This document shows positions 5,372-8,195 of a DNA stretch of 64,000 nucleotides, in pieces. The notes under the pieces were generated by a model. That model worked only from the letters and a program-made list of their open reading frames with translations. It was not told the DNA's origin and ran no database searches. Position numbers and translations under genes: made by a program. The DNA comes from Cheilinus undulatus (lineage: Eukaryota > Chordata > Actinopteri > Labriformes > Labridae). The number at the start of each line of letters is the position of its first letter. Positions within the stretch are counted from its first letter, which is position 1. Location: assembly GCF_018320785.1 (NCBI RefSeq), contig NC_054867.1, positions 21,951,855-22,015,854 on the forward strand, written 5' to 3'.

Positions 5372-8195
5372 ATGCCCAGGGAAGACAGGGCCACGTGGAA
5401 GTCTAACTATTTTATGAAAATCATCGTAAGTAGGTCTGAAGTTGGCAGTGGTTTTAATAAATTGATGAAAATATCTTTCTACTGGCGGTCCTTTAAGACA
5501 GCCAAACATTCTTTCTCGTGGGTTTGTTTCGTGTAAAGTTAATGTGAAGATGCCATTGACTAAAGCTTATTATAAATTCCTGTATACTGCATACTTGTAG
5601 ATAACTCTTAAGGTTTGTAGAAGCTACAAGGAGTCTTGTAGGATGCAGAGGATGTTTGAAAGACAAGATAATCTAGTCAAAGCTAAATTTCTAACTGCAG
5701 AACTGTACTCGACATGCTGTATTAGGAAGTCTTGTGTATAAATTTATCTGACTTGATTCTTCTGGGTCAAGTGATTTTGACCCTGAATGTTTGTATGTCT
5801 CCATTAAGGAAACAATGGTAGATGCTATTAAGCATGAACTAATTTTTATGTTTATGTGCCAGATAGAAATGACATTTTTGTGCTGTTAGGAAATCATGCA
5901 TGTATGTGCTCTCATATGTCTTTTGTAAACCTTGAGTCTGTTTGAATTGAATTGCCACAGTTTGTATGAGGTATGAATGTCATTGTGGTTTACTGTTTTC
6001 CTGTGTTAGCAACTCCTGGATGACTATCCAAAATGCTTCATCGTGGGGGCAGACAATGTGGGCTCCAAGCAGATGCAGACCATCCGTCTGTCTCTGCGAG
6101 AGAAGGCTGTTGTGCTGATGGGTAAAAACACAATGATGCGCAAAGCCATCCGTGGTCACCTGGAGAACAACCCTGCCTTGGAGAAGTGAGTTTTGTCATC
6201 TACAGAGCCATGAGTTTTCACTTCTGCAGGATTAGTTACAATGCAGCCTGTGTGGTACTGCTTTGTCGTTCCCCCTGCAAACAGTAATCTGTTTCCAGCT
6301 ATCCCTGTCTGTCTACATCCCACGACAGCCAGGGACGCAAGGTTTCAGACACCCAACTACTGATACCTTAAGTACAAATGTTGACTTTATGTATCTTAAC
6401 AGCTGATGCTGTGATTTCACAGGCTCCTGCCCCACATTAAAGGAAATGTGGGCTTTGTCTTCACCAAGGAAGATCTGGCTGAAGTTAGGGACATGCTGCT
6501 GGCCAACAAGGTAAGCATTCTTGCCAGAAATTTTCCTAATAGGCCTACAATAGCCTGTTAAAGCACCCATACAACTCTGGGCTTAATTTTGCCATACAAC
6601 TACATTTTGAATAGTCTCCAGACACGTTTAACAAAATGGTTGTATGGACACAGAAACATAGGTCAATGCGCATATAATGGTCTCACTAGCAATTCTTGAA
6701 TTGTGCAGTGCTTTTGGGAGACTTGTGTGTTAGGCTAACATCAGAATTCTTTAAATGGTGTGCAGGATTAGTTACAATGCAGCTTGTGTGGTACTGTATT
6801 GTCGTTCCCCCTGCAAACAACAAATTGTTTCCTCGCTATCCCTGTCTGTCAGCTTCTTTTGACAGTCAGGGACGTAAGGTTTCAGACAATTCAGTTCAGT
6901 TAAAACTTGAATCAATAAGTTCTTCTGAAATATAGTTCTAGGTTTGAAAATAGCCACAGGGAAGAATTACAGTAGGCTAAACTATAACTTGTACCCCAGG
7001 TACCTGCAGCTGCCCGTGCTGGAGCTATCGCCCCTTGTGATGTGACTGTGCCTGCCCAGAACACTGGTCTGGGTCCTGAGAAGACCTCTTTCTTCCAGGC
7101 TTTGGGTATCACCACAAAGATTTCTAGGGGAACCATTGAAATTCTGGTGAGTAAACACAACTGAACTGTAGCAGATGGAATTTGATTGCTTAGAATGCAT
7201 ACTCCAGGCAGTAGTACTTAATGTCTTTAGTCCACGCTATTTATCCAAGAAGCTCCCCCAATCCACACAAATGATATTTAACATAAATGAACTCTTTCAC
7301 CGACAGTCCCAACATAGCTCTCTTGGGGACAATTGATAACCGTCATTATTTTGTATTTTTAATGGAATCTGTTGGGTAAAACCGTTTGCATCAAGTTAAT
7401 GGGTGTTTCTGTCCCCAGAGTGACGTCAATTTGATCAAAACTGGTGACAAGGTTGGTGCCAGCGAGGCCACGCTGCTCAACATGCTGAACATCTCGCCCT
7501 TCTCCTATGGACTCATCATCCAGCAGGTGTATGACAATGGCAGTGTTTACAGCCCTGAGGTGCTTGACATCACAGAGGCTTCTCTGCATGCCAGATTCCT
7601 GGAGGTAAGACTCAACAGGTCATCTGATGTGAAATTGATGTAAAATTTTTATCTGCTCATTGTTGACAAGTCACTTCAAAAATGTGATTCTTTAGGGTGT
7701 GAGGAACATTGCAAGTGTGTGTCTGGAGATTGGCTACCCCACTTTGGCATCAGTCCCCCACTCCATCATCAACGGATACAAGAGAGTCCTCGCTGTCGCT
7801 GTGGAAACAGACTACTCCTTCCCCCTTGCAGACAAGGTATATACATCAAATTGCTGTCTCGGTTACACTATAGTCTTGTGATTAATGTGATTTTTAATAC
7901 CCAACACTTTGTTTCTGATCTGTGCCATATTTGCAATCAACCATGTGAATATATTAAATGTTTATATGAACCTAACTTGTATCTTTTTTCAGAACCAGGA
8001 TTTCTTTGATTAATGGCAACTTTTGTCTTGTCCTTGCAGGTGAAGGCCTTCCTGGCTGACCCATCTGCATTTGCTGCTGTTGCAGCTCCTGCTGCAGCTG
8101 CCGAGACCGCTGCTGCTCCGGCTGCTGCAAAGGAGGAGGTTAAGGAAGAGTCTGAGGAATCAGATGATGACATGGGCTTTGGTCTGTTCGACTAA
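5372..8195 (+). CDS. rplp0: 60S acidic ribosomal protein P0 (uL10), 7 coding exons, complete
   Basis: Coding exons are 5372-5425, 6010-6185, 6423-6510, 7000-7146, 7419-7604, 7696-7836 and 8040-8195. They join without frame breaks into 315 codons plus stop; the human protein has 317. The start [14 protein letters not shown] is the canonical P0 N-terminus. Residues 1 to about 190 form the uL10 rRNA-binding domain ([17 protein letters not shown] near 63-79). An Ala-rich hinge is followed by the acidic tail [16 protein letters not shown], the conserved P-stalk end that contacts translation factors. P0 anchors the P1/P2 dimers on the large subunit at the GTPase centre. All introns have GT-AG ends. 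Introns 6186-6422 and 6511-6999 each carry an H/ACA snoRNA-like sequence, so the gene probably doubles as a snoRNA host. Confidence 0.98.
6223..6354 (+). ncRNA. Putative intronic H/ACA-box snoRNA, copy 1 (rplp0 intron 3)
   Basis: About 132 nt with the hairpin-hinge-hairpin-tail plan of H/ACA guide RNAs. The first hairpin closes with TGCAGG (6225-6230) against CCTGCA (6274-6279) and has an upper stem GCAG/CTGC around an open pocket. Hinge box ACAGTA (6281-6286) fits ANANNA. In the second hairpin TCTG pairs with CAGA and TCCCTG (6302-6306 region) with CAGGGA. The ACA box is at 6349-6351, three bases before the inferred 3' end. It lies in the sense orientation inside a ribosomal-protein intron, the usual vertebrate location. 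A second copy sits in the next intron. I cannot name the family or its rRNA target. Confidence 0.72.
6759..6891 (+). ncRNA. Putative intronic H/ACA-box snoRNA, copy 2 (rplp0 intron 4)
   Basis: This is a diverged duplicate of the sequence at 6223-6354. It has the same closing stem TGCAGG (6761-6766) with CCTGCA (6810-6815), hinge ACAACA at 6817-6822 (same spacing), TCCCTG pairing with CAGGGA in the second hairpin, and ACA at 6886-6888. The first-hairpin pocket strands (ATTAGTTA and TCGTTCCC) are identical in the two copies. The terminal loop of the second hairpin differs but still pairs: CTGTC/GACAG here. That pattern, with guide strands fixed, loops changed and stems kept, suggests a functional RNA rather than a random repeat. 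Confidence 0.72.

Follow-up and report, generated by a model that had tools for sequence, protein, structure and literature searches.

Two SNORA63 (E3) candidates in introns 3 and 4 of Cheilinus undulatus rplp0 and their predicted 28S rRNA sites

Which snoRNA does the rplp0 gene of Cheilinus undulatus appear to carry twice, and what could the two copies guide? The question arises from a stretch of 64,000 nucleotides (the window), in which an initial annotation made from the letters alone had marked a duplicated H/ACA snoRNA, of a family that it left unnamed, in two consecutive introns. We joined the seven coding exons of rplp0 and obtained a complete RPLP0, with GT...AG at the ends of all six introns in between (Table 1). 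Introns 3 and 4 each contain one block of about 130 nt on the sense strand. Remnants of transposable elements and a series of scavenger receptor cysteine-rich open stretches lie elsewhere in the window and are included in the table.

Table 1. Features of rplp0, of the two intronic snoRNA copies and of the rest of the window (positions are those of the window; introns are numbered with the 5' UTR intron as intron 1)
Feature	Positions	Strand	Basis or remark
rplp0 host gene, RPLP0 of 315 aa	5372..8195	+	948-nt reading frame
rplp0 coding exons	5372-5425, 6010-6185, 6423-6510, 7000-7146, 7419-7604, 7696-7836, 8040-8195	+	joined reading frame
rplp0 intron 3	6186..6422	+	GT..AG, frame joined
rplp0 intron 4	6511..6999	+	GT..AG, frame joined
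SNORA63 copy 1, intron 3	6224..6352	+	RF00092, 89.6 bits (borderline); fold z -3.39
5' pocket left AUUAGUU, copy 1	6231..6237	+	fold; 6 predicted pairs with 28S AGCUGG
5' pocket right CGUUCCC, copy 1	6267..6273	+	fold; 7 predicted pairs with 28S GGGAACG
H box ACAGTA, copy 1	6281..6286	+	sequence; 14 nt below top of 5' pocket
3' pocket left GCUAU, copy 1	6298..6302	+	5 predicted pairs with 28S AUAGC
3' pocket right ACGC, copy 1	6335..6338	+	4 predicted pairs with 28S GCGU
ACA box, copy 1	6349..6351	+	sequence; 14 nt below top of 3' pocket
SNORA63 copy 2, intron 4	6760..6889	+	RF00092, 99.6 bits; fold z -4.38
5' pocket left AUUAGUU, copy 2	6767..6773	+	identical to copy 1
5' pocket right CGUUCCC, copy 2	6803..6809	+	identical to copy 1
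H box ACAACA, copy 2	6817..6822	+	sequence; 14 nt below top of 5' pocket
3' pocket left UCGCUAU, copy 2	6833..6839	+	7 predicted pairs with LSU consensus and L007; 5 with L006
3' pocket right ACGU, copy 2	6872..6875	+	4 predicted pairs with 28S GCGU, one G-U
ACA box, copy 2	6886..6888	+	sequence; 14 nt below top of 3' pocket; paired in predicted fold
LINE-type remnant upstream of rplp0	1579-3992	-	separate ORFs with reverse transcriptase or endonuclease fragments
Tc1-like transposase remnant	262-759	-	judged by sequence likeness only
Tc1-like transposase remnant	15425-15982	+	matches HTH_Tnp_Tc3_2
Scavenger receptor cysteine-rich domain, five open stretches	35296-61957	-	four above Pfam cut-off, 41200-41541 below

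Family and structure of the two intronic blocks

The two blocks are 85% identical. Positions 6225-6351 and 6761-6888 aligned with 110 identical columns out of 128 and one gap (local score 164); the best score was 25 among the other 20 pairs of rplp0 introns (with intron borders up to one base off and intron 1 guessed) and 30 among 1000 dinucleotide-shuffled pairs. The likeness between introns 3 and 4 is confined to the snoRNA, and the flanking sequence aligns poorly. When the 64-kb window was scanned with the Rfam models, copy 2 matched SNORA63 (E3, RF00092) over model positions 1-130 of 130 with 99.6 bits, above the curated gathering score of 90 bits for this family. Copy 1 also matched positions 1-130 of 130, with 89.6 bits (E 1.2e-14 in 3501 bases), and is thus a borderline member, 0.4 bits short of the gathering score; the Rfam cut-off alone would report only one copy of the pair. 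Apart from SNORA63, no family reached its cut-off in the window. A SNORA41 reading of the same place was rejected (29.5 bits, cut-off 80). As judged with the family model, therefore, both rplp0 intron blocks are SNORA63/E3, copy 2 by the family threshold and copy 1 at its border. The alignment and the sense-strand matches bear out the duplicated H/ACA snoRNA of the initial annotation, and the Infernal search of Rfam that it had proposed supplies the missing family name.

Both copies show the H/ACA layout of hairpin, H box (ANANNA), hairpin and ACA near the 3' end, and the four boxes were found exactly where they had been placed initially. The 3' end itself is given by rule only: if, as we assume, the RNA ends 3 nt after the ACA, the mature forms are probably about 6223-6354 for copy 1 and about 6759-6891 for copy 2. 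Both sequences are predicted to fold into two hairpins and a hinge (z scores in Table 1, from 200 shuffles each), copy 1 folding better than 199 of its 200 shuffles and having a U-U mismatch within the stem of hairpin 1. In the predicted folds the ACA box is engaged in pairing, with its first A in copy 1 and over its whole length in copy 2; of the hairpin-hinge-hairpin-tail architecture claimed initially, the two hairpins and the hinge are thus seen in these folds and the free tail is not. The minimum-energy folds also pair part of the 3' pocket (GC:GC or GC:GU, and CC:GG or CCU:AGG); this part and the ACA box would have to open for guiding, which we counted against a guide function. In H/ACA snoRNAs the target U lies about 14-16 nt from the H or ACA box. 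By our count, the top of the pocket is 14 nt above the box in all four pockets, the 3' pockets being taken in the register that has a site.

The differences between the copies are unevenly distributed. There were none in the two 7-nt strands of the 5' pocket, which had indeed been described as identical, and none in the ACA box and the other stem strands. The apical loops differ at 1 of 11 and 6 of 9 positions, the hinge at 2 of 8, the base and left pocket of hairpin 2 at 4 of 16, the descending stem strands at 2 of 9 and 2 of 12, and the right strand of the 3' pocket with the tail stem at 1 of 14. The apical part of hairpin 2 has thus changed, its loop at 6 of 9 positions, and its stem still pairs, as the initial annotation had it. 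This distribution fits selection on RNA structure, which two sequences cannot prove.

Guide pockets and predicted 28S sites

Targets were sought in a 28S-like fragment of 761 nt from the same assembly (L006:1100-1860): at every U we evaluated two-armed pairing with each pocket, and compared the scores with those of 1000 shuffled fragments. Degenerate 28S fragments were observed in two large contigs (L006:1100-1824 in C18 and L007:1397-1593 in C24); the former matched positions 2391-3399 of the LSU_rRNA_eukarya model with 486.6 bits and is a degenerate copy, not working rDNA. The scan covered this fragment and the shorter L007, which lacks the 5' site; 18S rRNA, complete 28S rRNA and snRNAs lay outside it. 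The likely sites had been spotted in known rRNA sequence before the scan, which still ran over every U. An exact 39-nt 28S core pattern had no match in the assembly, which may therefore lack the rDNA array; the same kind of pattern had no match in viral contigs.

The 5' pocket, which is the same in both copies, had one strong site on L006, GGGAACG[UG]AGCUGG, with six pairs in the left arm and seven in the right (L6+R7). Its score was 29, the next site scored 16, and none of the 1000 shuffled fragments did as well. By hand count, three of the six left-arm pairs are G-U. On L007 the best score of this pocket was 15. The 3' pocket of both copies had a single site in the scanned fragment, CCAAGCGU[UC]AUAG, with L5+R4 on L006 in each case (5 and 11 of 1000 shuffles as good for copies 1 and 2, respectively); copy 2 reached L7+R4 on L007 and on the Rfam LSU consensus. 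No site resulted when the 3' pocket was scanned in its alternative register. The comparison of the pocket strands with rRNA that had been suggested initially thus gave, for 28S fragments, one strong 5' site and a single 3' site, which are 101 nt apart on the Rfam LSU consensus.

Used as a guide in the same way, the Rfam consensus of SNORA63 found the 3' site with L4+R8 and a score of 30, and did not find the 5' site. On the LSU consensus the 3' pairing of the two copies scored 23 and 26, so that their complementarity to a Psi4390-type site is weaker than that of the family consensus. This consensus, used here in place of the human and chicken sequences, is itself a mixture that includes weakly conserved letters. 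Both copies carry AA instead of its UU in the right 3' pocket arm, which accounts for the weaker pairing. In the 3' pocket the rplp0 copies would therefore, compared with the consensus, form fewer right-arm and more left-arm pairs, and their predicted 5' guide is strong. We take the putative target of the 5' pocket to be the 28S-3976 site of chicken E3, and that of the 3' pocket the classic E3 site, human Psi4390. SNORA10 is hosted by rps2. A study of chicken snoRNAs names ACA10 (SNORA10) with the site 28S-3976 (PMC2653536).

Copy number, host genes and competing explanations

We searched the fish's own genome (1.17 Gb, 46 contigs) for further copies. A DNA search with copy 2 returned two places at E<=10, both of them the rplp0 introns (very common words were skipped). 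A search with the RF00092 family model also returned two places; on its own it is weak, as 51 of 66395 first-look candidates were scored. Neither the family model nor the DNA search found SNORA63 elsewhere in the genome, within the reach of these first-look searches. A pattern search for the snoRNA in viral contigs gave no match, and a laxer pattern gave one match in the genome contigs; this lies in a bacterial contig whose surrounding sequence shows no similarity, and we judged it to be due to chance.

Genes for eIF4A were located with an eIF4A probe, and every Rfam model was run on their loci at E<=1. In the eif4a2-like gene (L021) probe residues 9-407 were found, and the eif4a1-like parts (L022, L023) covered the sequence from about residue 116 on; an eif4a3-like gene was left out. 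The names were given according to the snoRNAs present and the identity to the probe, rather than by phylogeny. The eif4a2-like gene contains two SNORD2 and two SNORA81 (L021:2682-2755, 3311-3385, 3886-4066 and 5594-5777), and the eif4a1-like gene two SNORD10 that are 93% identical (L022:1167-1306 and 1724-1863). Neither the eif4a2-like gene nor the eif4a1-like part had an RF00092 match at E<=1, and the best blastn match of the two copies to the eif4a1 and eif4a2 loci was 13 nt long (E 0.094), which is expected by chance. SNORA4 had no match at E<=1 in the eif4a2-like locus, and none in the genome in a weak search (52 of 125837 candidates scored, with silent controls). The copies of SNORA81 are 65% identical and those of SNORD2 71%; with SNORD10 and SNORA63 doubled too, duplication within one host is not unusual in this genome. 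Since the host gene does not define the SNORA63 family, membership stands although the host is not EIF4A2.

Two similar blocks of 130 nt in adjacent introns could also be read as two insertions of a SINE-like element or dispersed repeat. Such an element, or a snoRNA-derived retroposon, requires many dispersed copies; finding only two places in 1.17 Gb argues against both a SINE and a large family within the limits of the search, and the blocks match a curated snoRNA family over its full length. The dispersed repeat, which the initial annotation had named as what would refute it, was rejected as far as a search of one genome shows, and we consider it extremely improbable. A further possibility is that one of the copies, more likely the lower-scoring one in intron 3, is a decaying duplicate from which hardly any stable snoRNA, if any, is made, so that the other alone functions. 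Vertebrate snoRNA copies that are not expressed have been described widely (PMC10234308), and copy 1 falls just below the Rfam cut-off, has the mismatch in the stem of hairpin 1 and has the weaker 3' guide. However, its boxes, both stems and whole 5' pocket are intact, its fold is better than nearly all shuffles, it shares its host gene with copy 2, and, of the 18 differences between the copies, seven are in the apical loops (1 and 6), two in the hinge and four at the base or in the left pocket of hairpin 2, making 13 in all. Decay of one copy is in our opinion unlikely, if the most serious of these alternatives. We regard as less probable still that the pair acts mainly in rRNA processing and that its guide pockets are secondary. 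A glioblastoma preprint groups SNORA63 with rRNA-processing snoRNAs (PMC12776523), but the scanned fragment has a single strong site, the predicted duplex with the 5' guide, and the snoRNA strands of this duplex are the same in both copies.

The explanation that we favor, and consider likely, is that rplp0 carries two SNORA63 genes, duplicated inside this gene and spliced out of introns 3 and 4, each of which guides two 28S pseudouridylations. The pair would have arisen by duplication inside rplp0, presumably not by two separate arrivals. The RNAs would be freed by splicing and trimming of the two introns, would be packed with the H/ACA proteins dyskerin, NHP2, NOP10 and GAR1, and would bring the H/ACA pseudouridine synthase to both uridines. 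The 5' pocket would direct pseudouridylation at the U of GGGAACG-U-GAGCUGG (chicken 28S-3976), and the 3' pocket at the second U of CCAAGCGU-U-CAUAG (human Psi4390, chicken 3875). Expression, processing and modification are steps that we infer from the genomic sequence.

Comparison with known SNORA63 genes

Human SNORA63 is assigned to Psi4390 (PMC7072173; PMC9941101) and lies, together with SNORA63B, in EIF4A2, alongside SNORA81, SNORA4 and SNORD2 (PMC8759569). The chicken study describes GGgACA30, the E3 homologue, as a singleton in intron 8 of EIF4A2 with a predicted 5' guide for 28S-3976 and a predicted 3' guide for 28S-3875; it equates 28S-3875 with human Psi4390 and states that human E3 has lost its other guide functions (PMC2653536). 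Within the open-access full texts searched, we found no printed statement that SNORA63 is located in rplp0; genome-browser annotation may well have it. The main text of a zebrafish host-gene paper contains neither 'rplp0' nor 'SNORA63' (PMC6954239), and the passages of PMC2832892 that were consulted name no fish host of SNORA63. Duplication within one host, called notable in the initial annotation, is so insofar as only six chicken H/ACA snoRNAs are duplicated and about 90% are singletons. On the other hand, it is a known route, almost all chicken snoRNA paralogues having arisen by duplication within one gene (PMC2653536), and SNORA81 and SNORD2 in the eif4a2-like gene and SNORD10 in the eif4a1-like gene, although of other families, are likewise doubled within one translation-factor host in this fish. 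The family itself and within-host duplication as an ordinary route were already known; the host gene is another than that reported for human and chicken.

The rplp0 pair resembles human SNORA63/E3 in its Rfam family and its H/ACA architecture, and its 3' pocket is complementary, more weakly than the consensus, to the same 28S site (Psi4390). The pair differs in its host, which is EIF4A2 in human, whereas SNORA81 and SNORD2 are placed as in human. In comparison with the Rfam consensus, not the human sequence itself, its 3' pairing has moved from the right to the left arm and its 5' pocket can pair with a further 28S site, which the consensus does not match. In this lineage a well-known vertebrate snoRNA is thus found in a different host, whereas SNORD2 and SNORA81, which accompany it in human EIF4A2, lie in the eif4a2-like gene. 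With chicken GGgACA30, the pair shares both predicted sites, and the difference between 3976 and 3875 is 101 nt, as here; the chicken RNA differs in being a singleton, in its host, and in a third predicted site, 28S-1612, that is outside the fragment scanned here. One may speculate, though we hold it doubtful, that the rplp0 pair represents an ancestral double-guide E3 for two pseudouridines 101 nt apart, in another host and with the 5' guide since lost in human, and that the two copies, equal at the 5' site and drifted at the 3' site (5 and 7 left-arm pairs), are at an early stage of a division of labor. The predicted sites of the rplp0 pair agree with the proposal, based on chicken, of an earlier second guide function of E3 that has been lost in human E3.
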